IMG/VR virus record: IMGVR_UViG_3300035181_001603
Coordinates: 1 to 54,110 of that record
Strand: one strand, 5' to 3'
Length of the DNA stretch: 54,110 nucleotides
Source of the DNA: a virus
Part shown: positions 5,567-48,496 of the stretch, in pieces
How the letters are laid out: every line of letters starts with the position of its first letter
How positions within the stretch are numbered: position 1 is the first letter of the stretch
Notes under the pieces: generated by a model
What the model saw: only the letters and a program-made list of their open reading frames with translations
The model's database searches: none
Told to the model about the DNA's origin: nothing
Made by a program: the position numbers and the translations under genes

Positions 5567-5842
5567 ATGAATGCAAGCTTAGAAATGCCAAAGTACAGAT
5601 GCCACAAGGAAGTGTGGGCGCTGAAAATTTACAACATGGTTGACCCGACTCAACCAGGAAATGAGAGTGACGGCAGCATGATGATTCACCCAGCCAACAC
5701 GAGGTATGAACCGTTTCGTGTGCCGCATGAATATATGCAAAAGCACAGTCCTGATGTGGGCGGCTACTATGTTGTATATGAGGACGGGTATCAGTCATAT
5801 TCACCAGCAAAAGCTTTTGAGGACGGATACTCGCTGGTTTAG
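5567..5842 (+). CDS. Conserved small phage protein (KYRCHKEVWALKI / GGYYVVYEDGY)
   Basis: A 91-residue protein whose motifs MPKYRCHKEVWALKI, then VPHEYMQKHSPDVGGYYVVY, then EDGYQSYSPAKAFEDGY are typical of a small protein found in many phages and prophages. The start at 5567 is preferred over 5543 because AAAGGAAATACC precedes it and it gives the expected N-terminus. It is likely a small beta-rich domain. No biochemical role is established. Confidence 0.75.
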   Translation: MNASLEMPKYRCHKEVWALKIYNMVDPTQPGNESDGSMMIHPANTRYEPFRVPHEYMQKHSPDVGGYYVVYEDGYQSYSPAKAFEDGYSLV

Positions 5843-5884
5843 GAGTCTAACGTAGAGATAACCAGCGATAGCAGAGGAACTAAA

Positions 5885-6487
5885 ATGAACTATCCTATTA
5901 CAGTAACCCTTTCCGATCTACGTAAAAAAGGAGCCTATTTTGAAAGTTATAACAAGGTAGTTAGAAGCCTTCAGGGACTCCCCTTCACCTGCAAAGATTC
6001 CATTAGAAAATCCTATATACGTTACGCACATAAGGGAGATATACTACTGTCTTCAATAGTACATAGTAACTGTCTAGATAACGCATTATGGGCGCTCCGC
6101 TGTATCCCAGGTATAGAAAGAGACGCACGTCTATTTGCTGTTTGGTGTGCTAGAAGGGTACAACACTTGATGACTAGTCCACATAGCTTAATAGCTCTGG
6201 ACATAGCAACGTTATACGCCAATGGAAGGGCTACAGATATGGACTTAACTGATGCGTGGGTTGCTGCTAGGGATGCAGCTCGCGCTGCACAGAACGCCGA
6301 TGAATGGGATGCTTCTCGCGCTGCTGTCTGGGTTACTTCGAAGTATGCTCCACAAGCAGCAGAGCAGGCTACTCTATGGGCTTCTGATAGGGATACTGAG
6401 GAAGAAGCTCAAAAAGCGATGTTCATCAAAATGTGTGAAGGCCGAGCGCCATGGCAAGAGACTGCAAGAGATATGGAAAGGTCCTAA
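5885..6487 (+). CDS. Paralog of the 2095 alanine-rich protein
   Basis: A 200-residue protein. The first 120 residues (NYPITVTLSDL...YNKVVRSLQGLPFT...ARLFAVWCARRVQHLM) closely match the 2095 gene. The middle (about 120-180) has more varied residues (AARDAARAAQNADEW, then DASRAAVWVTSKYAPQAAEQ) than the near-pure Ala tract of its paralog. The C-terminus (QKAMFIKMCEGRAPWQ) is again conserved. GAGGAACTAAA precedes the ATG. Comparing the two suggests the Ala tract of the 2095 copy expanded recently. Function unknown. Confidence 0.75.
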   Translation: MNYPITVTLSDLRKKGAYFESYNKVVRSLQGLPFTCKDSIRKSYIRYAHKGDILLSSIVHSNCLDNALWALRCIPGIERDARLFAVWCARRVQHLMTSPHSLIALDIATLYANGRATDMDLTDAWVAARDAARAAQNADEWDASRAAVWVTSKYAPQAAEQATLWASDRDTEEEAQKAMFIKMCEGRAPWQETARDMERS

Positions 6488-7413: not shown

Positions 7414-7649
7414 ACCCTGATATTTTCTGCGTGGGCTTTCGGCGTGGCGTGGACATTCACTTTGCCGCCAACGACAAAGGCATCGCCCAACTTCCCGACC
7501 TGATAAAAAAGAGCAAGCACCCTAACTGGACCTCGGGTATGTATGACGTATGGATTGCGGCAACAGTGCCAAACGTAATTGCACTGCGTTTAATGGGCAT
7601 CATCACCGCCGGGGATGCAACGAATATCTTAGATGGAGTGAAAACATGA
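7410..7649 (+). CDS. Hypothetical protein, 79 aa
   Basis: A 79-residue protein (MNPDIFCVGFRRGVDIHFAA, then WTSGMYDVWIAATVPNVIAL). ATGA overlaps on both sides show tight coupling with the flanking genes. No membrane helix, signal peptide or catalytic motif is visible and I do not recognise the family. Confidence 0.65.
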   Translation: MNPDIFCVGFRRGVDIHFAANDKGIAQLPDLIKKSKHPNWTSGMYDVWIAATVPNVIALRLMGIITAGDATNILDGVKT

Positions 7650-7930
7650 GACATACACCAGGCCCCTGGGTCGTCAAAGGCACCAACCCTCACCGTGTTT
7701 ACGCACGGGATGGGATTGGTATTATCTGTCAATGTGACAACATGGAGCTTCCTCTAGCAACCGAAAAAGCAAATGCCCACTTAATCGCGGCGGCACCGGA
7801 TATGCTGGCGGCCTTAAGCAAGCTGGCGAATGAATGCATCGGCGGGGAAGTGGGGACGTCTAAAGCGCCGACATGGGAGACGCTGTGCGCAGTTGAAACT
7901 TTACTTCATAATCTGGAGTTGAAAACATGA
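7646..7930 (+). CDS. HTPGPW / LIAAAPD-type small phage protein
   Basis: A 94-residue protein starting MRHTPGPWVVKG and carrying AHLIAAAPDMLAALSKL. This combination is a very common small protein in phages and prophages of Proteobacteria; its function has not been established. The start at 7646 overlaps the previous stop; a longer frame back to 7550 would run through the previous gene. It is one of the better indications that the host is a proteobacterium. Confidence 0.8.
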   Translation: MRHTPGPWVVKGTNPHRVYARDGIGIICQCDNMELPLATEKANAHLIAAAPDMLAALSKLANECIGGEVGTSKAPTWETLCAVETLLHNLELKT

Positions 7931-7984
7931 GGTCGGACTCTATGCACAAGAAGTTGAAATAGACTAGGCTCTGGAGGGTTACCT

Positions 7985-8473
7985 ATGAAAATAAAAGTAG
8001 CAGACGCAACCAAGTTGCAGCTCGACTGGCTGATGGCCAAAGCAGAAGGTATGCAAGTAGCCGTTGTAATGAACGAAAGAGTGCCCCAGGTGTGGAACTG
8101 GGATGACATCAATCCAAACACTACCTACAAGAACAAGGTAGGGGAGCATCGTTTCTTGCTGAACGGCAAGCCTGTAGGTCTATTCGGTAATCCCGTTGAG
8201 TACACGGGCGCTGATATGTGGCCTATTATTGAGCGTGAGGGTATTGGTATCTTTCAGTGTTCCCGTGATTTAGGTAAGCCGTGCAACTACTGGGTAGCAA
8301 CAATAGAATCGCAATCCTGGGATTGGAGCTACACTACCTGGCACGAAGACAAATCTATAATACTTTACAAAAGTGACACATATGTCGGCCCAACTCCACT
8401 CATTGCTGCCCTACGATGTTATGTTGCCAACACACTTGGTGAAGAAGTTGAAATACCTGAGGAACTGAAATGA
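7985..8473 (+). CDS. DUF2591-like phage protein, copy 2
   Basis: A 162-residue member of the same family as the genes at 6596, 8692 and 9057. The N-terminus is diverged (MKIKVADATKLQLDWLMAKAEG). The central WPIIEREGIGIFQ and the C-terminus PTPLIAALRCYVANTLGEEVEIPEE are retained, with an extra 30 residues in the middle. GGAGGGTTACCT precedes the ATG. It overlaps the next gene by four bases. Confidence 0.75.
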   Translation: MKIKVADATKLQLDWLMAKAEGMQVAVVMNERVPQVWNWDDINPNTTYKNKVGEHRFLLNGKPVGLFGNPVEYTGADMWPIIEREGIGIFQCSRDLGKPCNYWVATIESQSWDWSYTTWHEDKSIILYKSDTYVGPTPLIAALRCYVANTLGEEVEIPEELK

Positions 8474-9493: not shown

Positions 9494-9512
9494 TTGGTAT
9501 AAGAATAGTAGA
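9494..9512 (+). promoter_or_regulatory. Promoter motif TTGGTATAAG
   Basis: TTGGTATAAGAATAGTAG sits 33 bases after the last gene of the early-type cluster and faces away from it. It shares the AATAGTAG continuation with modules A to C. It would transcribe 9513-9660, which holds only a 35-codon frame and the convergent terminator. Its target is therefore a tiny gene or a small RNA. Confidence 0.6.
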
Positions 9513-9540
9513 TAGAAGTCTTAGGGATTTCTCAAATGTT

Positions 9541-9648
9541 ATGGCTAGCATTTCCCTGAGGCCTATACCTCTGAAAGGATACCATCTTGTGGAAGTACCG
9601 GATCTTTACAATAAAGCAGTACAGAGGTTTGTAGTACCTTTTAATTAA
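9541..9648 (+). CDS. Possible 35-aa ORF (or small RNA) behind its own promoter
   Basis: A 35-codon frame (MASISLRPIPLKGYHLVEVP, then DLYNKAVQRFVVPFN) is the only sizeable plus-strand frame in the transcript predicted from the promoter at 9494. An AGGGA lies about 22 bases upstream of the ATG, too far for a good ribosome site, so translation is uncertain. The transcript would end at the hairpin at 9659. It could equally be an untranslated regulatory RNA running towards the end of the tail operon. Confidence 0.35.
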   Translation: MASISLRPIPLKGYHLVEVPDLYNKAVQRFVVPFN

Positions 9649-9658
9649 CCTAAACTAT

Positions 9659-9682
9659 CCTCCCTATTGGGAGGCCTAGTTT
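9659..9682. terminator. Convergent terminator CCTCCC/GGGAGG
   Basis: CCTCCC (9659-9664), loop TATT, GGGAGG (9669-9674), followed by CCTAGTTTT on the plus strand and ATAGTTTA on the minus strand. It lies between convergent units and directly follows the stop of the spike gene, so it can serve both. Confidence 0.7.
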
Positions 9683-10719
9683 TAGCCAAAATGAACTCCG
9701 GAAGTATCCACTCTCATATAATGACTATGAGATTCTATTCTAACCCCGGTTGAATCAAAGATGGCCGTGGAAACATCATTGAAGTTTATTGAAATTGAAC
9801 TTGGATTGATGGTTACTGAAGAGTTGGATACAATGTCCTGTATTTGATTGGCTACAGTAGTCCTAGTCGAAGTCCCGACCCGGTCTATTATCGTACCGGC
9901 ATTTGCCGTCTGAGTACTGTTACCGATTACAATTATCATTTCCCCAGATTCATCCAGGGTTTCTACCATTACATCCCCAGCACTACCCGCACCTATCAGT
10001 CTTTTTTTAATTACTATAGAAATTGGGCTGGGTATTGGCTTAGGTGTTCCAAAAGGTGCGTCCTTACAGTGTTCTCCTGCGGCTACATCTCCATGGATTT
10101 CAGTGTACTCAAAATGACTATTCTTAGATCCGGTTAAATCCCGGTTAAATCCATAATATCTATATAGCCTGCCATATATATTGGCTATGGTCTCACTACT
10201 GAAATCACACATCAGATCATAGTTGCGGCCAACCACTCTCACCAGATCATCCCACCTAGAGACTATTATTTGGGCCAGGGGACTTGCCCTTACCAGAGCA
10301 GTACCCTCTCTCAGAAGTCCTACCAATCCTCCTGACAAGTTAGTCTGGATATGATCTCCGGCAGTAAAATCTGCTGGTTTATACGGATTGCTTTGAAAGC
10401 CACTAGAAAGGCCTGTAGCTGATCCTTGGTCCGTAGAGGGACCTGTGGTACCTATTTGTGAAGAAAAATCAACTGAAGGCCCTATGGCTGGAATTAGACC
10501 TAGTATTAAAGGATATGAGGTAGCAGTAGTTATTAACACTCTGTCTCCAGAAGTTGGGGTGAAGCTGTCTGTTCTGCTGGAAAGTAGCCAGGTAACACCT
10601 CGTAGACGTTGTCCTTTAAGGGTTTTACAGTCACACAAGAACTTAATGGGATCTACAGAGGTAACTATGGCCTCCATCATGCCAGAATCAGATCTGAAAG
10701 AACTATTTAAAATACTCAA
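9682..10719 (-). CDS. Baseplate/tail spike-like protein (gpV/gp5 type)
   Basis: A 345-residue protein following the tail tube. The N-terminal ~90 residues (EAIVTSVDPIKFLCDCKTL, then GDRVLITTATSYPLILGLI) look like the OB-fold of baseplate spike or hub proteins. The C-terminal third is polar and beta-repeat-like (SVTINPSSISINFNDVS, then GVRIESHSHYMRVDTSGVHF), as in beta-helical spikes with a His-rich metal-binding tip. The start is TTG with CGGGG upstream; an in-frame ATG at 10680 is the alternative. Assignment combines fold pattern and position after sheath and tube. Confidence 0.6.
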   Translation of the reverse strand: MSILNSSFRSDSGMMEAIVTSVDPIKFLCDCKTLKGQRLRGVTWLLSSRTDSFTPTSGDRVLITTATSYPLILGLIPAIGPSVDFSSQIGTTGPSTDQGSATGLSSGFQSNPYKPADFTAGDHIQTNLSGGLVGLLREGTALVRASPLAQIIVSRWDDLVRVVGRNYDLMCDFSSETIANIYGRLYRYYGFNRDLTGSKNSHFEYTEIHGDVAAGEHCKDAPFGTPKPIPSPISIVIKKRLIGAGSAGDVMVETLDESGEMIIVIGNSTQTANAGTIIDRVGTSTRTTVANQIQDIVSNSSVTINPSSISINFNDVSTAIFDSTGVRIESHSHYMRVDTSGVHFG

Positions 10720-30115: not shown

Positions 30116-30982
30116 GGAACAGCCTATTGTCCCTTTAGGTGTGCTGTTTGTTGCGGCCACCGTAGTCTGTTTGCTGTCAGCCTCTACGGGTTTTAAGGAA
30201 TCACTATAGTTCGCCACTTGATTGAAGGCATCTAGTCCAGATTTAGTTATGTTAGAGTTGGCCAATAGTATGGCAATACCATCAGTTTTACTATTTACAT
30301 CAATAGCCCTATTACTGGCGATATATCCATTAATATCCGCTCCCCTACCAACATAGGCTATAGTGGCTGCGACTATAGAATCATGGACCGATCTTTTGTG
30401 TCTACGATAAATTTTATATTTAGAATCTAAAACTAGTAATCCAGCTGCAATGGACCTGGTTAACCCCGTATCATTATCAGGAAATAGTGCTATTATACTT
30501 TCCCCAGGATTGACTTCTAAACCAAGGTCTGTGATAACTTTTCGGTAATAGCTGTGCCCAAACATATCTATATTAGGGCCGGTGTTTTTTACACAGTAAC
30601 ATCCCATTACCCCAGAGGCCCCGTGGGCAGCCCTGCCTTGATTGATATTTATAAGTACTTGTGAAGGGGTGGACCCGTTAGAAATCAAGCTCCTAATGGC
30701 TGGGCTATTCATATACTGGGGGATAAGTGATCCAAAATTAGAAGGAGTTACCCCTGGATGGATAGAACTACTACCATTGAGGCCAGAGTTCTCTCCCCAG
30801 AATTTAGTATTACTCCAGGACATATTGAAACTACTTTCATGTCCCCATATTGCCATGGCAATATAGACAATGTCAGGAATACGGGCTAGGTCTGGAAAAT
30901 ATTGTTTTAACAGATTTTGAGTAATTACCGCATAGTGTTGGACTTTGTTATACCTGGCCGAGGAAACACTAGTATTTCCCAT
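30113..30982 (-). CDS. Lysozyme/transglycosylase-like virion protein
   Basis: A 289-residue protein. IAMAIWGHESSFNMSW (Glu49) matches the catalytic Glu-Ser helix of lytic transglycosylases and lysozyme-like domains. GASGVMGCYCVKNTG follows in the position of the G-x-x-G/Q substrate segment. There is no signal peptide. The start at 30982 is chosen because GGAG lies nine bases upstream; longer starts at 31003 or 30991 are possible. It overlaps the end of the beta-prime C-part gene. It probably locally digests peptidoglycan during DNA entry, because it sits among virion genes. Confidence 0.55.
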   Translation of the reverse strand: MGNTSVSSARYNKVQHYAVITQNLLKQYFPDLARIPDIVYIAMAIWGHESSFNMSWSNTKFWGENSGLNGSSSIHPGVTPSNFGSLIPQYMNSPAIRSLISNGSTPSQVLININQGRAAHGASGVMGCYCVKNTGPNIDMFGHSYYRKVITDLGLEVNPGESIIALFPDNDTGLTRSIAAGLLVLDSKYKIYRRHKRSVHDSIVAATIAYVGRGADINGYIASNRAIDVNSKTDGIAILLANSNITKSGLDAFNQVANYSDSLKPVEADSKQTTVAATNSTPKGTIGCS

Positions 30983-32801
30983 CAGTACCATCTCCAAATT
31001 CATTACCCATTACATAGCTAGTAATAGGCTCTGTAGAGTGTATCGGTGATTTATGATTAAAGAAGGCAGCCTCTTGAATTGTCTTTGACAGATGGTTAAA
31101 GGCCAATTTAGAAACCCAGTTTTTATCCAATAGCTTATTTGTCTGAAGCCCGGGGACAATAGGTTTGACCTTAAGGTTATCTGTTGAAACTGAAACCAAC
31201 TTGACTCCTTCATCTTTAAGATAATCCAGATGATTCTGCCCCAGGATTGTTCCAGGAGTAAGTTCTAGAGAACCTTTGGCCAATGATTTTCCTAAGGCCT
31301 GATCCACTGCAATTTCTTTGGAGTTTTCTGCAAGGTGCTGGTTCAGACTACCAATATCCACTGTGTCACCAACCAAGAGTCCGCTAAGACCCGGGTCTTG
31401 GACTACTACGTGCTTGATCATGTTTCTAGAAATGACATCAAAGTGTCGTGGATCCAATCCTTTACCAGACCCACTAGAATAGACTTCCCTTAGTTGGTTA
31501 GACAAAGAGATTCTACCTGCCCCGGCTCCTTTTAGATCTACCAACTGTCTAGGGTTGGTAACGCCAGTAGAGAGAACGTCTCCCAGTCTTACCTTCTGGC
31601 CCACAGAAACCAATGGGGTTTCATGACGGTCAACGAAGTGCTGAATACCATTTACTGAAATATTGGTGTCATTCAGAGCAGTTTTTTTAATGTCCGTAAC
31701 TTTGCCGTTTAGGGTGGAAAGGGTGGCTTCGTCTTGGAAGTTCTGTCTTGGGTTATTTAGAAGATTAGCAGCCGACTCATAGGCATTTCTACGGGCACCA
31801 GCTCCACTACCAGTATGTTTGACCGATAACATTGCCTGGGTCAAGACTTCAGAAATACTCTGAGCTGCAATAATACCTGGGTTGGTGCCTATTTCTGGAG
31901 GTCTACCGTTGGCTGCCAGGCCGTAACACATTTGACATAGTCCTTGTTTGGCCTCACAGGTTAGACTACTTCTAAGGAGCAAGAATTTTTGGCCGTCATT
32001 GATTTTGCTCTTTAGATACTCTAAGTCTACTAACTTATTGGTCTTGGCCTCAAATTTGCCTACTGAGGCTAGTTTGTCTGAGGTAGGAATTTGAACACCG
32101 TTCTTCGTTCCACAGTCTTTGACGGTAATCACCTCGTGAAAAACAGAAGGAGTTAGTTTTTTAAACAAGGCACCAGGATACTGGGTGGCCAATTGGGCCA
32201 AGACGGTACTGGCCCTACCAGAATAGGCCATTGCTAAATGCTCGGCAGTAGTAAGCCCTTCGGCAAAACTATGTTTTACTACTACTGGAATTGGATTACC
32301 CTTGATGTCGGCTGCCATCAGGGGGGAGTATGTAGCCTGGGCCAACTGACCAGTTGTGGCTCGTGCTCCTACATTGGACATTTGGGCCACTACAGATCCT
32401 TTGCCCAACATGTACTGTAAGTTCTGCTTACTTATTCTACCCTGATATTCTCCTGCAAGTTTACCCAAGGCAGCTGCCTGCTCTTGTTTGGTCTGCTTAC
32501 TGGCCAGTATTTGATTGACCTTAAATTCAAATTCTTTGAGGGTGGCTTGTCTTTCATCGGACTCGTTTGTATATGCCTCAAGGGGGGTTGTGGCACCGAT
32601 TTCAGTAGCTGTATCGAAGAATTTCTTGGTAAGAGTATTGATGGTATTATGAGCTTCTGGACCACCGTTTTCCAGTAGGTTATTAATTAGATTGGAGATG
32701 CCATGCTTGTCCAATGGCTGGGCCAGGTCATAGACATCTCTAGACTTTTGAGTTGGTAAGGAGGCCTTGATGGCCAAAGATCCTGGAGTAGTGATAGTCA
32801 T
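30969..32801 (-). CDS. RNA polymerase beta-prime, C-terminal part (bridge helix, trigger loop)
   Basis: A 610-residue protein equivalent to E. coli beta-prime from about residue 600 to the end. Landmarks in order: bridge helix around 130-165 (NVGARATTGQLAQA), FAEGLTTAEHLAMAYSGRAS, a four-Cys zinc site (C230, C282, C289, C292; GLCQMCYG), trigger loop NPGIIAAQSISEVLTQ with His329 in the catalytic position, then LREVYSSGSG...IMIKHVVV-like clamp parts and the closing LSKTIQEAAFFN segment. The large E. coli trigger-loop insertion is absent. The other beta-prime parts are encoded at 42089 and at the end of the 43227 gene. It has the late-type motif four bases upstream and no clear ribosome site. 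Confidence 0.9.
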   Translation of the reverse strand: MTITTPGSLAIKASLPTQKSRDVYDLAQPLDKHGISNLINNLLENGGPEAHNTINTLTKKFFDTATEIGATTPLEAYTNESDERQATLKEFEFKVNQILASKQTKQEQAAALGKLAGEYQGRISKQNLQYMLGKGSVVAQMSNVGARATTGQLAQATYSPLMAADIKGNPIPVVVKHSFAEGLTTAEHLAMAYSGRASTVLAQLATQYPGALFKKLTPSVFHEVITVKDCGTKNGVQIPTSDKLASVGKFEAKTNKLVDLEYLKSKINDGQKFLLLRSSLTCEAKQGLCQMCYGLAANGRPPEIGTNPGIIAAQSISEVLTQAMLSVKHTGSGAGARRNAYESAANLLNNPRQNFQDEATLSTLNGKVTDIKKTALNDTNISVNGIQHFVDRHETPLVSVGQKVRLGDVLSTGVTNPRQLVDLKGAGAGRISLSNQLREVYSSGSGKGLDPRHFDVISRNMIKHVVVQDPGLSGLLVGDTVDIGSLNQHLAENSKEIAVDQALGKSLAKGSLELTPGTILGQNHLDYLKDEGVKLVSVSTDNLKVKPIVPGLQTNKLLDKNWVSKLAFNHLSKTIQEAAFFNHKSPIHSTEPITSYVMGNEFGDGTDGKY

Positions 32802-39225: not shown

Positions 39226-39906
39226 ATGAAATATCTAGTAATTGTTGCAATGTTTTTGACCACAGGGGCGATGGCCAACCAACCTGGGAATTACATGTCA
39301 ATGTCTTCGGACATTGATATTGGAATGAGCCAAGGGCAGGGGCAAGGGCAGGGGCAAGGGCAAGGGCAAAGTCAGGTTGGTGGTAACCAGTCCGTAACCC
39401 TGACCAATACCAGTCCGGCCAAAGTTACAATCAGAAACACCCCAGCCTTGGCAGCAATAATCTCGTATCCTACTGCCGTCTGTATGGGTACTTCTGGTGG
39501 CGGTGTCTCTGGGACCGCCTTTGGGTTAAATTTTGGGACCAGTTGGTCTGACGAAGAGTGTAAATCACTACGTTTATCTGATGACCTTTGGAATCGTGGC
39601 ATGAGGGAAGATTCCATAGTGGTCCTATGCCAGGTTAAGCGGATGAAGGATGCTCCTAGTTGTCAGCCTGGATATAAATTTCCAGAGCCTATTGCAGTAG
39701 TGGAGCCAGTCAAACCTATTGCAGTAGTGGAGCCAGTCAAACCTGTTACAGTAGTGGAGCCAGTCAAACCTGTTACAGTAGTGGAGCCAGTCAAACCTGT
39801 TGCAATAGTGGAGCCAGTCAAACCTGTTGCAATAGTGGAGCATATTAAGCCCGTAGCTGTCAGTGTCAAAAAATGGCCAAAGAAAAACTCTTGCGGTAGT
39901 ATTTAA
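39226..39906 (+). CDS. Secreted repeat-rich phage protein, 226 aa
   Basis: A 226-residue exported protein. Signal peptide [18 protein letters not shown] Gly-Gln run ([15 protein letters not shown]) precedes a conserved middle ([20 protein letters not shown], then [20 protein letters not shown] and VVLCQVK). I recognise this Cys-containing middle from exported proteins encoded near lysis or morphogenesis genes of other phages. The C-terminus has six repeats of 9 residues ([10 protein letters not shown]) and a basic tail. The proline repeats are expected to be extended. Starts four bases after the previous stop, so they are co-expressed. Confidence 0.65.
39691..39852 (+). repeat. Six 27 bp tandem repeats encoding VVEPVKP
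   Basis: Units begin at 39691, 39718, 39745, 39772, 39799 and 39826. They encode nine-residue units around VVEPVKP. The sixth is degenerate (VEHIKP). Third-position changes (GCAGTA, ACAGTA, GCAATA) pair neighbouring units, which suggests pairwise duplication. Confidence 0.95.
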
Positions 39907-39909
39907 GTA

Positions 39910-39942
39910 AATACTAGGCCAAGCCCGGCCTAGTATTTTTTT
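39910..39942 (+). terminator. Intrinsic terminator before DHFR
   Basis: AATACTAGGCC (39910-39920) pairs with GGCCTAGTATT (39927-39937), followed by TTTTTTTT. A perfect 11 bp stem. The dihydrofolate reductase ATG is only 16 bases beyond the stem's 3' arm and no promoter motif lies between. Confidence 0.9.
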
Positions 39943-39952
39943 TGGAGATATA

Positions 39953-40585
39953 ATGATTAATGTAATTGTAGCAGTATCAGAAAATGGTATTATAGGCAAC
40001 AAAGGCAAGATTCCCTGGGATATTAAAGAGGACATGGCTTTTTTCAAGGCCAAGACTATTGGACAAATAGTGATCATGGGCCGGAAGACATATGAATCCC
40101 TAAAAGGGGCCTTACCTAAAAGAATTAATATTGTCATTACTAGAGACTTGGGCTATATTGCCCCGGGGTGTATAGTGGTCAAATCTTTGGCAGCAGCCAT
40201 TAAAGAAACCAGTAATTTCCCAGAGCTTGAAACCTTTATTATTGGTGGGGCTACCATCTACGAACAGGCCTTAAAGGCCAACCTAGTTGACTTCGTCTAC
40301 TACACTATGATTAATAAGTATTTTGAGGGTGACACATATTTTCCATATTTTTTCATGGACTTAGTTTACAGTAAAAAAGGGGAGACCGACCCGGTAGTTT
40401 TTGTGGTCTATGAAAAGCCAGGAGTGACGGCAGGCCTGAGACGAAAGGCCAAACAGATAGGACACTCTGCCATGGCTGGGTATCTGAAGAACCGAAACTA
40501 CACTCTAGATCATGCCCTTAATATTATCTTAGGAAAACCAGATGGAGACACGTCACTTAGTCATCTTGAACAACATGGGACTTAA
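39953..40585 (+). CDS. folA: Dihydrofolate reductase with C-terminal extension
   Basis: A 210-residue protein whose first ~160 residues are a DHFR: VIVAVSENGIIGNKGKIPWD (Trp22 and acidic residue for substrate), IVIMGRKTYESL (cofactor), INIVITRD, FIIGGATIYEQAL. It regenerates tetrahydrofolate from the dihydrofolate released by ThyA (34558). Bacterial DHFRs are ~160 residues, so the last ~45 residues (AGLRRKAKQIGHSAMAGYLK, then LDHALNIILGK) are an extra basic helical tail of unknown use. TTGGAGATATA precedes the ATG. Overlaps the next small gene. Confidence 0.9.
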   Translation: MINVIVAVSENGIIGNKGKIPWDIKEDMAFFKAKTIGQIVIMGRKTYESLKGALPKRINIVITRDLGYIAPGCIVVKSLAAAIKETSNFPELETFIIGGATIYEQALKANLVDFVYYTMINKYFEGDTYFPYFFMDLVYSKKGETDPVVFVVYEKPGVTAGLRRKAKQIGHSAMAGYLKNRNYTLDHALNIILGKPDGDTSLSHLEQHGT

Positions 40586-40736: not shown

Positions 40737-41154
40737 TTTTATAGGTGTGGCCAAGGCCATTTCCAATATGTCCGTAGATCCTGGTACCAAAGTTGGAGCC
40801 TTGATTTTTGGAAAAGGACTAAACATTGTTAGCCAGGGATGGAATGGTTTTCCCAGAGGGGTAAAACACCTAAGCCACAGGTATTATGACAAGGAAAGCA
40901 AATATGCCTATACGGTTCATGCTGAGGCCAATGCAATAACCAATGCTGCCAGGGCCGGTTCTAGCACCTGTGATTGTAGTATTCTAGTCTGGGGTCTGCC
41001 ACCATGTAGCTCTTGTGCTGGTTTGATTATCCAGGCCGGTATCAAAGAAGTTTATATCCCATCAATTTTAAACATACAACAGGTATGGAAAGACTCCTTT
41101 GAAATATCAAAAAAAATGTTCGAAGAATCCGGTGTAGTGGTCAAATCAATTTAA
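40723..41154 (+). CDS. Deoxycytidylate deaminase
   Basis: A 143-residue cytidine-deaminase-fold enzyme. HAEANAI supplies the zinc His and catalytic Glu; PCSSC supplies the two zinc Cys. FIGVAKAISNMSVDPGTKVG at the N-terminus is typical of dCMP deaminases, which make dUMP for thymidylate synthase. The start at 40723 follows GGAAGAAATTTATTA; upstream in-frame ATG 40657 lies in the previous gene. It acts upstream of ThyA and downstream of dCTP breakdown. The 3' end is convergent with the endonuclease gene (four base overlap). Confidence 0.85.
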   Translation: MNIADFIGVAKAISNMSVDPGTKVGALIFGKGLNIVSQGWNGFPRGVKHLSHRYYDKESKYAYTVHAEANAITNAARAGSSTCDCSILVWGLPPCSSCAGLIIQAGIKEVYIPSILNIQQVWKDSFEISKKMFEESGVVVKSI

Positions 41155-42092
41155 GGGCCAACTAATCTCAGTGTGACTGACCCACAATCCCATATCTTAA
41201 CCATTCTCTCACCTATTTCCCTAAGCCCCGACTTAAGAGAGTAGGCAAACAGTTTTGGTTTATTAGTCCTTACCAGTTCAAAGCCAAGGGATATAAAGTG
41301 TTTTTGGTCTAGGAGACACCTGTCTAGGTTGACCTCTACTGGCCCAAGTCCTTTTAGGAGAATCTCCAAGGAATTACTTGGGGCGGTGGCCTGAAAGGTA
41401 TAGCTTGTAATTTTGTTGTCGGCCAATGTTATACTGGCCACAATAATCTTATTTTTAAAAAGGCCCAAGGCCCGGTCAAACTCAGGTGGTTCTACTAGTA
41501 TACTGTTCTGATCTAAAAAAAGGAGAGCCTGGGCTTGACTGAGTTCTGTAACAGTCTTGATTCTGGTTTTTTTTAGCCCATCAAAAGAAAGGTGTCTGAC
41601 CAAATACTCCTTTACCTGATCCTTACGAGTATTCCATTGGTCTTCCCATATATGAATCAGGTCATATCCCTCCTCTGCTGCCTTAGTAGTCTTAGATAAG
41701 TGATACCCTTGTCTTTTGCCACGTTGTTGGCTGTGGAAATACATTCCATTAAACTCGATGGCCAATTTGGCCTCAGGTATTACTAGGTCAATTTCAAAGC
41801 CTTTGAGAATTGATCTATCACTAGTAATGACTTCGAAGCCGAGCCCAGAAATGAATTCGGCCAATTCTCTTTCTGGACCTGAAACGTACTTATTACGGGA
41901 GACGCACTTAGGACAAGAGGCTTGTTTACGAATCAGGTTATGGGCCACAATGTTAAAGTCACCGTGTTTTTTACAAGTTACCGTAACCTTGGACTTGGCC
42001 CTAAAGTATTCTGACCTTGCGTATTCATATTTATCCCCATAGATCTTCTTGGCCTTGGCTATAAAAGAGGCCTTACGTTGGGCCAGGTTCAT
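41151..42092 (-). CDS. Homing-type endonuclease (VSR-like/EDxHD type)
   Basis: A 313-residue protein. Residues ~1-65 (FIAKAKKIYGDKYEYARSEY, then KVTVTCKKHGDFNIVAHNLI, CPKC) match the DUF723-like DNA-binding repeat common in phage homing enzymes. Residues ~75-170 contain a very-short-patch-repair-like nuclease core: FEIDLVIPEAKLAIEFNG, then YFHS, then DLIHIWEDQW. The C-terminal half is unrecognised. The start overlaps the stop of the central RNAP beta-prime gene (ATGA). Enzymes of this kind often insert in conserved phage genes. Here it sits exactly where beta-prime is interrupted. Confidence 0.75.
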   Translation of the reverse strand: MNLAQRKASFIAKAKKIYGDKYEYARSEYFRAKSKVTVTCKKHGDFNIVAHNLIRKQASCPKCVSRNKYVSGPERELAEFISGLGFEVITSDRSILKGFEIDLVIPEAKLAIEFNGMYFHSQQRGKRQGYHLSKTTKAAEEGYDLIHIWEDQWNTRKDQVKEYLVRHLSFDGLKKTRIKTVTELSQAQALLFLDQNSILVEPPEFDRALGLFKNKIIVASITLADNKITSYTFQATAPSNSLEILLKGLGPVEVNLDRCLLDQKHFISLGFELVRTNKPKLFAYSLKSGLREIGERMVKIWDCGSVTLRLVGP

Positions 42093-43225
42093 CCAGTAAT
42101 TTCTACAGGAGAGTTAACCTCCAGGTGTCCGGCATGGAAAGCCTTCAAGGCATCAGACTCAGTTTTAAACTTGGTAGGGGTTCCAGAAGCCGGGTTGGTT
42201 AGGTGGAAAGATCCTAGGATAGATTCGTGTTGTGGTCCTATGAGGGAATTACCCAAACCAAGTCGGTAATCATGCATTTGATGCTGGGGCAGTAGCTTGT
42301 CCTTGGCCTCTTTAACAGCCTCTGGTGACATTGGGCAAAATATCGACAAGGCGTCACCGTCGAAATCCCCTGCAAAATAACGGAGGTGTAGGAGGTTTAT
42401 GCCAATAGTACTACCCTCCACCGGGACAGGCATCATTGCAATTATATTAGACTTCATAAGAGTAGGTGCCCTATTCAGAATTATAGGTATGTTTTTTATG
42501 ACCTTATTAAAACTGCTGGTTGCTACTGTATTACGATCACTCCAAGCCTTTTCTGATGTAACATAATCAAGACCCTGCTTGGCCAAATCTCTCAGTATAT
42601 GGAATTTATATAGTGTCCACAGCATATCTATAGGCACGGCTGCCTCGTTAAACCCTAGATCTGGATTTGCCGAAATCGTGGCCCTACCACTGAAGTCTTG
42701 TTTTTTAGATAATAAAGTAGAGTGGAATAGGCCTGTCTTAGGGCCTCCAGAGCCAGAGATTTGAGCCAAGAGCCCTCGGGCACCCCTGCCCTTGGAATTA
42801 GGACTTATAGCCTCCCCTAGGCCCATTATAGCCTTAACACCATTATAGGCATCAGTCCTCTCTTTTATCAGTTCAGAGTTTTCCAATAAGTCCTTGTTTT
42901 CACCCAGAGGTTTATTGACCAGCATATGATCTTTATATATGCTGGTAATGTCAGCAAACTTGGCCTGGTTTCCCATGATGGCCGTAGGACGCATAGTAGG
43001 AGGTAAGACTGGTATGTTATTTAGAATGTAGGCGTTTTCTGCCGTCAGCCCAGAACCTTTAAGGCCAGATACATACTTAAGACGCTTAATAAGTTCGTCT
43101 TTCTTAGAAATTGACTTGGCCGTCTTGATTTCTTCAGTAATCTCTGCTATTTTCTTGTCCGGGTCTAGACCTGATAGTAGAGCCTTAAAGGCCTCTCCAG
43201 ATACTTTCGGTTCTTGATTATTCAT
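42089..43225 (-). CDS. RNA polymerase beta-prime, central part with DFDGD active site
   Basis: A 378-residue protein equivalent to E. coli beta-prime residues ~215-560. Landmarks: NNIPVLPPTMRP (71-80), switch/dock region KKQDFSGRATIS (174-185), PIILNRAPTLMKS (247-259), and the catalytic GDFDGD with Asp287, Asp289, Asp291. The usual NADFDGD is AGDFDGD. It lacks the N-terminal clamp, which is on the preceding polypeptide, and the bridge helix and trigger loop, which are on the 30969 gene. It starts one base after the upstream stop and is followed by an overlapping endonuclease. It must assemble with the other two subunits to be active. Confidence 0.92.
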   Translation of the reverse strand: MNNQEPKVSGEAFKALLSGLDPDKKIAEITEEIKTAKSISKKDELIKRLKYVSGLKGSGLTAENAYILNNIPVLPPTMRPTAIMGNQAKFADITSIYKDHMLVNKPLGENKDLLENSELIKERTDAYNGVKAIMGLGEAISPNSKGRGARGLLAQISGSGGPKTGLFHSTLLSKKQDFSGRATISANPDLGFNEAAVPIDMLWTLYKFHILRDLAKQGLDYVTSEKAWSDRNTVATSSFNKVIKNIPIILNRAPTLMKSNIIAMMPVPVEGSTIGINLLHLRYFAGDFDGDALSIFCPMSPEAVKEAKDKLLPQHQMHDYRLGLGNSLIGPQHESILGSFHLTNPASGTPTKFKTESDALKAFHAGHLEVNSPVEITG

Positions 43226-43226
43226 T

Positions 43227-46200
43227 TTAATGTTTAACTTCCCGTATAAACCTATTCTCGTTCACCGTATCAACCAAATGAAATTTATTGTCTTTTTTGA
43301 CCACCCCAATCTTACCAGAGTTAATATCATTAAACTCCTTGGTGCTTAATCCTAGGATACTCTTGACTGGGTTCTCAAAAATAGGATTTAAAACTGGTTC
43401 GGCCAATCTATAGTGACTCCACTTATTTCCCCTCAAACCCCCAGTAATAACTTGGTCGAATAGTCCACCCTCTTCTGGCTCCAGATTTCTGGAATTCAGG
43501 ATTGAAGGTTCAGTAATTTCACCGTTTGACTGAGACACGATGTCATGGTCAGTCATAGGACTAGCCACCAAAGAGTCTTTACTAATTTTAACATTGACAC
43601 CAGAAGCTTTTAAATAGTCTAAGAATTTAGTAGTAGCAAAGGTAGACCGTGGCTTAGGCAGGGCTTCACCTCTAATGAACTTAGACCAATACTCTTCGTT
43701 ATTTTCTGACTTTGTGGTCCCGATCTCTTTCAGGTTATGCCTGGCATTAGAGCCTAGTAGTCCAAGAACTTCCATATAACCCACGGCCTTAGAGCCTTCT
43801 TCACCACCTTTGACGGGCTGACCAACGGCATCATACCCACCTACATTCCTGGCAGAATAATTGCTGTCTGTGGTCTTATACAATTTAAGAATATACTGTT
43901 TACCACTAAGTATATTATTATATTCCTTGCCTGATTCAGGATCAACCAGGTTTTCAGTGTCTTTTAATCCATGGCTCTTAAGCTCGGCAGAAAGATCCTT
44001 TACATTACTGTTACTACTGTAATTCTTAACCATATAAGGCTTACCGGTCTTTTCGGCAATCTTACTGGCCACGGTTTCCATTACTTGACCTAGGTTAATA
44101 CGACTGGTCACAGAGGCCGGGTTTAATAGTAGGTCAACGGTCTTGCCGGTATCCTTATTATATGGCATCTTGGAGTCAGGTAGAATCAAGGATACAATAC
44201 CCTTATTGCCATGAAGGCCCGTGAGCTTATCACCGATCTCCAAAGGTTTTACACTTCGCAATAGGATACGAATTGAGTTACCAGAAGTATGGGAATCTAC
44301 TACAGAACCAGGTTCCTCATGTGACCATATTTCAGTAACCAGCCTATAGGGGTTGACCAGAAACTTATGTAGTTTTCCTAGTATTCTATCCTCTGGAGTA
44401 GGCTCTCTTTTTTCCAGGACTGCATAGACCGGATCACCATTGTGAACTACTACTCCTACTTTGGCATACCCTGAGTCGTCTAAGTTGGCTAACTGCTCTG
44501 GAGTAAACTTACCTGGGAAGAAACGTTTGACCAAATTCTTTTTGGCAACTGTGTCAATTACTACGTCGTAGTCTACTTTATAGGCATGGTGACTACTCAA
44601 CCCTTCGGCGGCAGCCTTGGATATTACAATACCATCTTCGTGGTTATAACCTTTCCATGGTAGATAGGCTACTTCCAGGTTTTTACCAAGGGCAAGATGA
44701 CCATCCTTAGTATAGTTGTTTTCATATACGGCAGTATATTTATCAACATCCTGTCCTAGGGATACCAATGGTTTCTCATCATCAAAAAACCCCTTCATAT
44801 TGAATGGTAGATTCTTTACTGCCTTAATTTTTTCTATAGATCCATCTTTAGACTTGAGATGTATTTCTTCATCATTTACTTTGACTACTATACCCCCAAC
44901 TTTGGACGTGGTAGAGACCTTTCTTCCCAAGTAATGTGCAAAAGTCTGTTTGTTGGCCATAACGGTCTGAACCAAAGGAGCCTCTCGGTCAACCAATGAA
45001 AGGGCCTGGGGAATAGACTTACCGGCCATGGTCAATCTACCCGAACTGTTACTATTGAGGAAGGGGACCAGGTTAGTAGTGTAGGTGTACATTGAAGTAG
45101 GGTCGGAAACCCAGTAGTTGACTGACTTGGTTGGCACCCGTTTCAGGACTCCATGATCTTGGGCCTGGACAGTAGTTCCTTCTACTGAATCAGGGAATCC
45201 AATTACAGAACTCATCATTTCCAAAACAGACAAGTGTTTGATTTTACCTGCCAAGTCTTTTACTTCGGCATACATCTTGCCAGCCTTATCCCTCATGGCA
45301 TTAATGGCAAATCTTTGGTCGATACCTGCATGACCAGATTCCGGAGTACGGGCCGGGTCAAGAATACCAAGGTGACTTGGGTCGATATTACGGGCGGCCA
45401 TTGGGACAGCCCTTTCCTCTCCAATACCGCCCTCTTCAGGCCCCAAAATCGTTACCTTACCGACATTTTCCAAACTCTCAATTGAGTTGGTTTCAGATGG
45501 GGTAGAGATCAAAGAGCTCTTTTGTAAATAGGAAGAATAGACTTTGCTATAAGGCTTACTAGGAATGGCATCTCTAATTCTAGGATTATTCTGATCTATC
45601 TTTTCAAGTCCGAAATGAAGATTATTCTTTATTCTTTGGACGGACTCTTGCCCTTTACGGAAGCGTGTGGCTAAGAAGTCGGGCAAGTTCTGGACTTTTT
45701 TGAATTCAAGACTATCCCGATTATCTTCAATCCTATCCCCTTTGTGAACCTGCACCAGGTTCTTCAAGGTGGTCAAGAAGACCGCCGGAGTAATATTGGT
45801 GAAACTAGAGCCGAGTAGAGCCTTAGTGGTCTCAGGGTGTAGTTCAGTTTTCTCAATAGAGGCCTTAAGTTCCTGTATCATTACGGGGAGGGTTACATTA
45901 GGATCCTTAGAATAGACCATCCTAGAGTAAAGAGCTTTGATTATCTTATCTTCTTTACCGGCTGTGGCCACCTTGTTACTTTCCCAGACTTCTTTTGGTA
46001 TATATTTTTCTATTTCCGAGTCCGAAAGGCCGAAGACTTTTGTCAGTAATGGGGCAATAGGGTTGGCAGAATTACCTGCCTCCAAGTAGAAAAGCTGAGT
46101 CTTAGGCTCTAGGACAATTCTAAAAGAAGCTCCCTTGTCAGTATTAAAGTGGGCCTCTAGTTCGCCGGTATTTTCACGGGTACGAGTATAGACTCCAGGA

Positions 46201-46565
46201 AGCAGTTGTAGAAGATTGGAAACAATATAGTTATTGCCTTTGTAAAGCAGGGTATGCTTACTGGTCATATGGAAGGCATCCATAAGAGGGAAGTTTGTAA
46301 TATGGTCTACTACCTTACCCGTGGCCTTGGAGGTCAAGGTTAGGTCTCCTCTAATTGGATAAGTCAAAGACTTGGATTGTAGGATGGCCGTCTTTTCATC
46401 ATTTGCCGTAAACTTCTTAGGATCTGCTTTTACATTACTGACCTGTAAGATATAATTCTTGCTCTCAATAGGGAACTGCTCGGTCAAGGCCGTTTCCAGG
46501 ACAGAATCGGCATGTCTATTAATGTCGCTAGGGTCAGAATAGATGGGAGTTAATTTAGGCTGCAT
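43227..46565 (-). CDS. RNA polymerase beta fused to beta-prime N-terminus
   Basis: An 1112-residue protein. Residues ~1-1000 are a beta subunit: VTILGPEEGGIGEERAV with DPSHLG (fork region), WKGYNHEDGIVIS (hybrid-binding), GDKLTGLHGNKGIVS and ASVTSRINLGQVMET. Residues ~1013-1112 (43227-43529) match the start of bacterial beta-prime: SNGEITEPSILNSRNLEPEE, then GGLF, then a HxxL-x-x-P segment; compare E. coli [24 protein letters not shown]. The usual N-terminal zinc finger is deleted between these. Natural beta::beta-prime fusions exist in Helicobacter and Wolbachia. Here only the first segment of beta-prime is fused. It overlaps the previous gene by 11 bases. Confidence 0.9.
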   Translation of the reverse strand: MQPKLTPIYSDPSDINRHADSVLETALTEQFPIESKNYILQVSNVKADPKKFTANDEKTAILQSKSLTYPIRGDLTLTSKATGKVVDHITNFPLMDAFHMTSKHTLLYKGNNYIVSNLLQLLPGVYTRTRENTGELEAHFNTDKGASFRIVLEPKTQLFYLEAGNSANPIAPLLTKVFGLSDSEIEKYIPKEVWESNKVATAGKEDKIIKALYSRMVYSKDPNVTLPVMIQELKASIEKTELHPETTKALLGSSFTNITPAVFLTTLKNLVQVHKGDRIEDNRDSLEFKKVQNLPDFLATRFRKGQESVQRIKNNLHFGLEKIDQNNPRIRDAIPSKPYSKVYSSYLQKSSLISTPSETNSIESLENVGKVTILGPEEGGIGEERAVPMAARNIDPSHLGILDPARTPESGHAGIDQRFAINAMRDKAGKMYAEVKDLAGKIKHLSVLEMMSSVIGFPDSVEGTTVQAQDHGVLKRVPTKSVNYWVSDPTSMYTYTTNLVPFLNSNSSGRLTMAGKSIPQALSLVDREAPLVQTVMANKQTFAHYLGRKVSTTSKVGGIVVKVNDEEIHLKSKDGSIEKIKAVKNLPFNMKGFFDDEKPLVSLGQDVDKYTAVYENNYTKDGHLALGKNLEVAYLPWKGYNHEDGIVISKAAAEGLSSHHAYKVDYDVVIDTVAKKNLVKRFFPGKFTPEQLANLDDSGYAKVGVVVHNGDPVYAVLEKREPTPEDRILGKLHKFLVNPYRLVTEIWSHEEPGSVVDSHTSGNSIRILLRSVKPLEIGDKLTGLHGNKGIVSLILPDSKMPYNKDTGKTVDLLLNPASVTSRINLGQVMETVASKIAEKTGKPYMVKNYSSNSNVKDLSAELKSHGLKDTENLVDPESGKEYNNILSGKQYILKLYKTTDSNYSARNVGGYDAVGQPVKGGEEGSKAVGYMEVLGLLGSNARHNLKEIGTTKSENNEEYWSKFIRGEALPKPRSTFATTKFLDYLKASGVNVKISKDSLVASPMTDHDIVSQSNGEITEPSILNSRNLEPEEGGLFDQVITGGLRGNKWSHYRLAEPVLNPIFENPVKSILGLSTKEFNDINSGKIGVVKKDNKFHLVDTVNENRFIREVKH

Positions 46566-46771: not shown

Positions 46772-48496
46772 TTACTGTCCCTGTTTAGCATCCGTATTCT
46801 CCTGAGGTTGTGGTTGTTCTACCTGAGTTTGGGGTTGTTCTTCTTGTAGGACTCCTGCCATCAATTGACTGACCATCCAATATTGACCATAGTCAGCCAT
46901 TTTTAGCTGATTGAGCATAGCCTTTTTATCTTCTGGACTAGCTCCAGATATCTGTTCGTATATCATCTGACTCTTGGCCAAGGCGGATACGAAAGATAGG
47001 TCTTTGGTAATATCCTCTCCTGCCTTGGAGGCCGCCATAAATTGGGCCTGCTCGGACCTAACCTGAGTTTCGACTACAGAAGAGGCTGCGGCTGCGGCTT
47101 CGTCAATAAGATTTTCCATCTCGCTGTGAAAATCTAAGCCATTCTCTTCAAACAACGTGGTAAGGGAGGCTTTACCGCTTGAGGCAAGACTAAGTAGTAA
47201 TTGTTTAAAGGCTGGGTCGTCCAACAGACGGAAAGGCACCATTGAGACTTCTACATTAGCTAATCCCAAGTAGGCTGTAATCTTGGCCATGCTCCAAGAT
47301 ACAAGGTCTTCAATCCTAGAGATATAAGACAGAAGAGTATTCTCCATCATACGTAGACCTACGCTGGTACTAGTCCAGTTGGTAGTACCACTAAGCAGTT
47401 CCTGAGAGACTCCTAGACTAATAAGGATCTGTTCCTCGGCCTGGGCAATCTCCTGGCTTACCATTAGGTTTTTACCCTCCCCACTCAGAGCATTATATCC
47501 AATAGGTACCGGAGCAATCAGATAGTGGTTCTTATCCCTTTTGTGTAATCTAATGGCATTTTCCATTATATTACGGAAGTTTTTCAGGTTTAGGGCCAGG
47601 GACGGGTCTGAATTACCCGTCTGGGCCTGTGGGAAGATTGTTCTGAGCGGGGTCAGATACTCTGTGGCTATGGCCTCATTTGCCTTCCTAAGGGTTGCCT
47701 GATAAAAGACCAGGCTAAACAGGGACAACATTGGAGGGACGGCCACGCCTTCAATACTACCACCAGTAGAAATATTCTGTAAATGAAAGATGGCATCAGT
47801 ATCAAACTTAAAGTCCTGATTATGTCTGATAGCCTCTATAAACCCCCAAGGGGTTGAATTGACGGCTAACCTATCTCCTCTTTGAATCTTCTGTTTGAGT
47901 GAATTGGGTATCTTATAGTAAAAGTCTTTTTCTCCAGTAATAGGATTATGGTTTACTACGATATGTTCTGGAGTCCACTTAATGATATTGATGTCGGCTA
48001 CGTTCATTGACTTGGAATCATGACGAGTAAATACACCAGAATATCCACATCCATGGGTAGGGCAGGCTCCTGTAAATTCCCACTTCTTAAAGGATAGGAA
48101 AGAGGCTTTTTTACTACTATGTCTAGTCAAACACTTAGGGCAGACCAGTTCACGGTTTATTGGCAAGTAGATTGAAACGAATACATTACCAATTGAAAAG
48201 AACTCGAACCCACAGTTCTGTAAGGACTCCTTAAGTTTTAAGGACTTGAAAATATCCCTATACCTCTTTTTTAAAGGCTCACTCTTGGTGTCTATATTAA
48301 AGTCAGTAATTGGGTAGGTGGCCAATTTCCGTATAACTTCTGTGGCCGTTGGTGATTGTAAGATAATATACCTGGCCCAACGAATGATGTCATGTAGGTT
48401 CCTGGGAGCATATTGGTTGGCCAAGTTAAACCAGGGATTTCCTGATTGATTTGCACCAAAGCCGGGGCCACTTATAGTAGTAGGATCAAGGTTCAT
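46772..48496 (-). CDS. Portal protein with zinc-ribbon insertion
   Basis: A 574-residue protein. The plan fits a portal: N-terminal helical stretch (RNLHDIIRWARYIILQSPTA), FFSIGNVFVSIYLPIN strand region, long helix ISLGVSQELLSGTTNW then SVGLRMMENTLLSYISRIED, and a C-terminal Gln-rich tail. Residues 119-150 hold a zinc ribbon (CPKC and CPTHGC), an unusual insertion. A dodecamer would form the DNA entry vertex. It is the first minus-strand gene of its unit and has the late-type motif 23 bases upstream. No ribosome site is seen. The large terminase is not beside it. Confidence 0.75.
   Translation of the reverse strand: MNLDPTTISGPGFGANQSGNPWFNLANQYAPRNLHDIIRWARYIILQSPTATEVIRKLATYPITDFNIDTKSEPLKKRYRDIFKSLKLKESLQNCGFEFFSIGNVFVSIYLPINRELVCPKCLTRHSSKKASFLSFKKWEFTGACPTHGCGYSGVFTRHDSKSMNVADINIIKWTPEHIVVNHNPITGEKDFYYKIPNSLKQKIQRGDRLAVNSTPWGFIEAIRHNQDFKFDTDAIFHLQNISTGGSIEGVAVPPMLSLFSLVFYQATLRKANEAIATEYLTPLRTIFPQAQTGNSDPSLALNLKNFRNIMENAIRLHKRDKNHYLIAPVPIGYNALSGEGKNLMVSQEIAQAEEQILISLGVSQELLSGTTNWTSTSVGLRMMENTLLSYISRIEDLVSWSMAKITAYLGLANVEVSMVPFRLLDDPAFKQLLLSLASSGKASLTTLFEENGLDFHSEMENLIDEAAAAASSVVETQVRSEQAQFMAASKAGEDITKDLSFVSALAKSQMIYEQISGASPEDKKAMLNQLKMADYGQYWMVSQLMAGVLQEEQPQTQVEQPQPQENTDAKQGQ

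Follow-up and report, generated by a model that had tools for sequence, protein, structure and literature searches.

The border between the two largest subunits of RNA polymerase (RNAP) is among the most conserved features of gene organisation. In the DNA of an uncultured phage analysed here (the window: all 54,110 bases of IMG/VR record IMGVR_UViG_3300035181_001603), the beta gene runs past this border and ends inside beta-prime. Sequence comparison supports a subunit border that has shifted into beta-prime, with the remainder encoded separately. We consider it very probable that the window specifies a phage RNAP of the bacterial type with a three-chain core (beta::beta-prime-N1, N2 and C), derived by fusion and then fission at a variable linker in beta-prime, and probably packaged. 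The open reading frames (ORFs) and segments concerned are as follows.

46565..43227, minus strand: beta ORF, 1112 residues.
43578..46565, minus strand: beta proper, residues 1-996 of the 1112-residue ORF.
43230..43577, minus strand: N1, the beta-prime tail, residues 997-1112 of the beta ORF.
42089..43225, minus strand: N2 of beta-prime, 378 residues, matching TIGR02386 positions 161-534 (E 9.6e-51).
30969..32801, minus strand: C-terminal part of beta-prime, 610 residues, matching TIGR02386 positions 549-1078 (E 1.3e-47).

The initial annotation had proposed that the beta polypeptide ends with the N-terminus of beta-prime, and profile comparisons bear this out. The best match to the PRK00405 beta model covers beta residues 257-994 and reaches model position 1094 of 1096, and the stretch before the tail aligns with the beta C-terminus through residue 996 (hhalign, 97.2%). 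The beta-prime alignment starts at residue 997, and thus the natural ends of the two subunits abut in the alignments. A tail profile made from 26 tails of split-type loci (those whose beta ORF ends after N1), with no fused sequence included, matched a four-row alignment of beta-prime N-termini (E. coli, one bacterial contig and two phages) at 97.9% and E 3.3e-13, so that the comparison with RpoC domain 1 is significant at the level of the profile. This alignment is collinear and spans both sides of a missing zinc finger. Had the tail been a C-terminal element of beta, a match to beta C-termini would be expected; against a three-row alignment of these the same profile gave none (hhalign, 0.1%, E 0.52).

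Searches of the PDB gave the same assignment. At E<=0.1 the tail profile had 60 matches, each falling within residues 13-102 of a chain the size of beta-prime; for 27 of these sequences E was below 0.001, the lowest value being 2.7e-4. Among the 60, 3iyd_D is labelled 'subunit beta', yet has 1413 residues and was matched at the same beta-prime position. Residues 988-1112 of the window protein alone (phmmer) matched 42 PDB sequences at E<=1, with a best E of 0.0035. In the best 27 of these 42 the match lay close to the N-terminus of a beta-prime chain (residues 12-65; 61-103 in one construct), and three, with E values no better than 0.16, were unrelated proteins (SusD and two exonuclease entries). 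The Pfam family RNA_pol_Rpb1_1 matched 25 of the 26 tails at E<=1 (best 8e-6), the window's own tail scoring E 1.7e-4 and 21.5 bits, under the curated score of 39.7 bits. The tail is slightly longer than first annotated, beginning at 43577 and not at 43529.

The beta stop codon occupies 43227-43229, and N2 starts one base past it. On the TIGR02386 beta-prime model the N1 tail matches positions 8-48, and this match and those of N2 and C do not overlap; positions 49-160, which comprise the missing zinc finger and the second part of N1, had no HMMER match, the second part of N1 being aligned by profile comparison only. The three pieces likewise match positions 14-56, 170-540 and 591-1105 of the phage family phrog_25354 (1216 positions). 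Beta-prime therefore exists as three stretches, of which the beta ORF carries the first. Separate coding of the rest of beta-prime was thus correctly anticipated, though as one remainder and not as the two pieces found. In E. coli coordinates, N1 residues 997-1092 align with about 18-149 of beta-prime, and N2 starts a few residues ahead of a motif at 181 and ends near 552. The cut falls in a linker of variable length just ahead of the conserved G-x-A-x-x-x-(M/L)L motif, and bacteria carry lineage-specific inserts near this site. The N-terminal zinc finger is absent from the window and from all of Arash, D69, L083, L091, L107 and L099, the relatives discussed below.

The pieces retain what a catalytic core would need. 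Core domains were detected across the window (PF00562, E 1e-55; PF00623, E 4.7e-18; PF04998, E 2.1e-12), the active-site DFDGD motif lies at residue 287 of N2, and the C piece comprises Rpb1 domain 5 (the PF04998 match) and the second zinc site with its four conserved cysteines (C230, C282, C289 and C292). With the large beta domain, the zinc-site cysteines and the aspartates needed for catalysis all in place, an active core enzyme is the likely prediction.

Among cultured phages the closest are Salmonella phage Arash and Vibrio phages D69, D148 and D181, which, of 41 records with a match, are the four covering at least 80% of beta; identities in beta to this group are about 50-53% (Arash, 53%). 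In Arash and D69 a single ORF runs from beta through N1 and N2 (1525 and 1527 residues), and fused ORFs of about 1500-1560 residues in Arash, D69 and IMG/VR relatives carry the same tail in frame. Judged by sequence, Arash gp206 is also a partial beta::beta-prime fusion, though annotated only as 'beta'; the Arash paper names it 'subunit beta', and the word 'fusion' does not occur in its main text. Arash gp206/gp216 and the window share the joined beta/beta-prime border, the separate beta-prime-C and, in partial synteny, a portal gene upstream of beta. They differ in that N1 and N2 form one ORF with beta in Arash, whereas the window's beta ends after N1. Vibrio phage D181 (L012) has two group I introns, at 9512-9792 and 5715-5922. 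The first of them, together with a homing endonuclease ORF, splits the D181 beta gene, and the beta gene of D69 is uninterrupted.

Two IMG/VR scans yielded 57 classified loci, several of which are near-copies of one another; of the window's virus, L002 was excluded and L007 included. N2 is a separate gene at 31 loci (one being the window's own virus), and in the window and the 30 further loci beta and the N-terminal half of beta-prime do not share one ORF. Ten loci are of the fused type, counting L044, in which beta is in frame with N2 without a stop and the frame leaves the contig. At 11 loci the beta ORF ends after N1 and N2 lies outside the fetched stretch, and at five beta is cut by the contig end. 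A scan with N2 as the query added one split locus, L074, in which the two genes share 20 bases, and, as fused loci, L083 (1506 residues) and L091 (1500 residues).

These data bear on whether the window's split is real. The window stop and the next start are one base apart and in different frames, and the joined ORF is present in relatives, as would be expected if faulty sequencing or assembly, or a frameshift that arose recently, had broken an Arash-type gene at 43227 in this genome alone. Among the 31 loci (some near-copies), however, the distance from the beta stop to the first possible N2 start ranges from -4 to 8116 bases, and in L047, one of the 11 loci without N2 in the fetched stretch, N2 was found on the same contig (L090) about 12 kb off. 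The longer gaps contain other genes, their scanned products being head-decoration-like, collagen-like, a papain-type peptidase, weakly DnaJ-like or unknown, so N2 is a gene of its own. The window sequence is also repeated in two other contigs. A conserved split with intervening genes therefore refutes the error or frameshift explanation, to which we attach practically no weight.

A separate matter is whether N1 and N2 are reunited after transcription, by programmed ribosomal frameshifting, splicing or a split intein, into an Arash-like protein. Gaps of -4, 0 or 1 base in some relatives would allow this, a group I intron does interrupt the beta gene of D181, and an intein-like stretch (under the Pfam curated score) lies in the beta-prime part of L099. 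Nevertheless, no Rfam intron reached the gathering threshold in the window, L006 or L010 (the split-type loci searched), alignments inspected by eye revealed no intein-like extra domain at the end of N1 or the start of N2, and gaps of several kb hold whole genes. We find such rejoining very improbable.

The order of events was addressed with a tree of beta without its tail. D181 was omitted on account of the intron in its beta, rows whose beta cores were identical and L007 were removed beforehand, and L099 and E. coli appeared in the first tree only. The 37 split-type rows among 49 (27 with N2 seen and 10 without) formed one group, set off by a single branch (support 89/93; recovered in 88% of 200 bootstrap trees). 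The fused rows require two changes on this tree, with L091 branching between L107 and all others. Two remoter phages have larger ORFs: about 2115 residues in L107 (9677-16024 of a 208-kb contig), spanning beta and beta-prime, and 2460 residues in L099 (6749-14131), with beta, beta-prime and the intein-like stretch. Both look like complete beta::beta-prime fusions. The simplest reading of these sequences is a passage from separate genes to a complete fusion, then to beta::beta-prime-N and then to three pieces. The reverse, in which the three pieces came first and the Arash fusion was joined later, accords with the argument that multisubunit phage RNAPs are old unfused forms (PMC7824862). Yet a beta-prime tail on beta presupposes an earlier fusion, and the fused L091 branches below both groups, with the full fusions L107 and L099 outside, though on long branches. 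We think it very improbable that the split is ancestral.

We propose that the ancestor would have carried beta and the N-terminal half of beta-prime in one ORF, an arrangement that persists in Arash and its kin and that in remoter phages extends to all of beta-prime. In one lineage the linker may then have gained a stop codon followed by a new start codon, after which the genes of the pieces would have drifted apart. In RNAP the beta C-terminus adjoins the beta-prime N-terminus at the base of the clamp; because the two are neighbours there, N1 would have stayed on beta, as a built-in docking piece for the separately made N2 and C. More tentatively, and with rather less than even confidence, we suggest that the phages compared here preserve the stepwise series itself (complete in L107 and L099, then the Arash type, then the window type), that many-chain phage RNAPs arose by fusion then fission and are not unfused relics, and that N1 serves as a covalent anchor replacing alpha in the packaged enzyme.

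The window enzyme is probably packaged in the virion and would start early transcription, by analogy with Arash, in which the fused protein Gp206 is the most detected virion protein (3516 spectra, 100% coverage) and beta-prime-C (Gp216) and the sigma factor Gp10 are also present (PMC10585845). Sigma region 4 was detected in 11 of 14 records, 10 of them above the curated score. The L045 record had no such match, yet encodes a 91% identical copy of the annotated Arash sigma gp196, which indicates that the sigma region 4 model is not a full measure.

Other observations speak for this account or against it. Against it, the AlphaFold models had low confidence, with a mean predicted local distance difference test (pLDDT) score of 55.3 for beta residues 887-1112 (34 rows) and 52.5 for the fused fragment of L046 (18 rows); only two helices and strands at the end of the tail reached pLDDT ~70-83, too little for a claim about the fold. 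In favour of the account, exactly one tail match per record was found in all 13 split-type records searched whole (two of which, the window and L007, are one virus), a count that is not final since records may be incomplete. Also in favour, and with the same caution, alpha (PF01000) was found in none of 14 records against 13 of 14 control genomes; core domains and the aspartate motif fit a bacterial-type multisubunit RNAP, and an alpha subunit was not seen. A further point in favour is the ratio of nonsynonymous to synonymous substitution (dN/dS), which for the tail was 0.028-0.095 in four of eight pairs and not computable in the other four, although two of the four values rest on dS above 2. 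For the 500 codons ahead of the tail it was 0.014-0.066 (five of eight pairs), and in pairs L059/L062 and L020/L021 tail dN was clearly higher than in those codons. Also against the account, fusion is placed as ancestral by outgroups with long branches, about which the program issued a warning, and the docking role of N1 is one that we infer. Packaging is argued from Arash, 53% identical in beta, whose authors also consider that the enzymes may be left over from infection (PMC10585845).

Complete beta::beta-prime fusions, in which the beta C-terminus is joined to the beta-prime N-terminus, occur in Helicobacter and Wolbachia. Matching beta/beta-prime models exist in NCBIfam. Unlike these fusions, which lack fission, the window protein stops inside beta-prime (at 43227), with N2 and C as separate ORFs. 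Partial fusion is known from yeast virus-like elements, where K2ORF6p joins beta to part of beta-prime and the C-terminal part is a second protein, K2ORF7p (PMC6211774). There the break lies between beta-prime regions a15 and a16 and leaves two chains (PMC6211774), whereas the window's break follows the first beta-prime segment and leaves three. The yeast element did not tolerate a split between beta and its beta-prime part (PMC6211774), which agrees with a need for a beta/beta-prime link.

Splits of beta-prime are known from jumbo phages, cyanobacteria and archaea (PMC7598289, PMC6211774). The virion and non-virion RNAPs of phiKZ/AR9 jumbo phages are multi-chain, with beta-prime cut after the catalytic barrel (PMC7598289) and beta in two or three chains (PMC7824862); the available text of these papers (PMC7598289, PMC7824862) mentions no beta-prime segment on beta. 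The window shares the cut after the barrel (N2 extends to TIGR02386 position 534 and C starts from 549), and its beta is a single chain, residues 1-996. N2 matches cyanobacterial rpoC1 only to position 550 of 619, so the N2/C cut is near, not at, the cyanobacterial one. Two further systems are set beside the window by description only: the crAss-like phage RNAP, described as a highly divergent single chain that combines parts resembling beta and beta-prime, and the mReC Caudovirales RNAP of Weinheimer and Aylward, with phage beta and beta-prime subunits and no partial fusion mentioned in the available text (both PMC7481178). The initial annotation was right that the border has moved into beta-prime, and K2ORF6p and Arash gp206 show that partial fusion as such is not unheard of. 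In open-licence PMC literature, surveyed mostly by title and abstract, we found no report of a phage beta that extends through the first beta-prime segment and stops there, and none that describes the Arash protein as a fusion.

The subunit border has been relocated inside beta-prime across a whole group of phages, which suggests that an RNAP can undergo fusion and a later cut at a different site, presumably still working. The cuts offer natural sites for split or engineered polymerases and bear on whether many-chain phage RNAPs are ancient unfused forms, as has been argued (PMC7824862), or products of splitting. Because Arash is in culture, its virions could serve as a source of the fused enzyme for purification.

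Beyond N1, many split tails have up to ~25 additional residues, often acidic (e.g. L021:12959-13390); this extension is probably disordered and is lacking in the window's own tail. A conserved protein of ~285 residues (L111:739-1593, equivalent to G001:72738-73592) also occurs in G002 and G005-G011; one of its segments is homologous to the part of beta-prime that surrounds DCGT and the second zinc site (hhalign to beta-prime-C, 97.3%, E 2.1e-11). Nine of the 13 split-type records have it near full length, Arash, L045 and D69 have it divided in two, and it was not found in L107. Its Arash counterpart, gp7 (7425-8105, 226 residues), is a virion protein (202 spectra; PMC10585845). Perhaps it is a beta-prime fragment turned virion part, or a dock for the RNAP.

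On the minus strand the gene order is portal, beta, N2 and a homing-endonuclease-like ORF, with beta-prime C further on at 32801-30969. The flanking genes are:

46772..48496, minus strand: portal gene, upstream of beta as in Arash (PHROG portal, E 2.7e-11; protein 42% identical to Arash gp204).
41151..42092, minus strand: homing-endonuclease-like ORF (phrog_3339 homing endonuclease, E 1.2e-40).

The latter overlaps the end of N2 by four bases and so sits after N2, outside the N1/N2 break. A homing endonuclease as maker of that break was considered and was not borne out by the gap proteins. No endonuclease family was found (Pfam, E<=0.01) among 10 gap proteins of L015, L016, L018, L025, L026, L028 and L032 or among eight proteins encoded downstream of beta in L010, L003 and L005 (the latter two showing no N2), nor in PHROGs among nine of these 18 proteins, a subset of the gap ORFs.

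The intein-like stretch of L099 has a weak homing-endonuclease match, both under Pfam curated scores, and by eye lies at DFDGD; it was dropped as a marker of the N2/C cut, being upstream of it. MT836236 (L014) was dropped as a phage outgroup, its neighbours resembling, by eye, ribosomal proteins and EF-G, which marks it as bacterial DNA, and later served as a bacterial row in alignments. Several OR84- and OR85- records labelled as phage are suspected, from the matches alone, to contain ordinary bacterial rpoB/rpoC. Elsewhere in the window, an ORF at 39625-40137 (minus strand) contains about six copies of the peptide LHYCNRFDW, a 27-base tandem repeat, directly upstream of a gene that by eye resembles dihydrofolate reductase.

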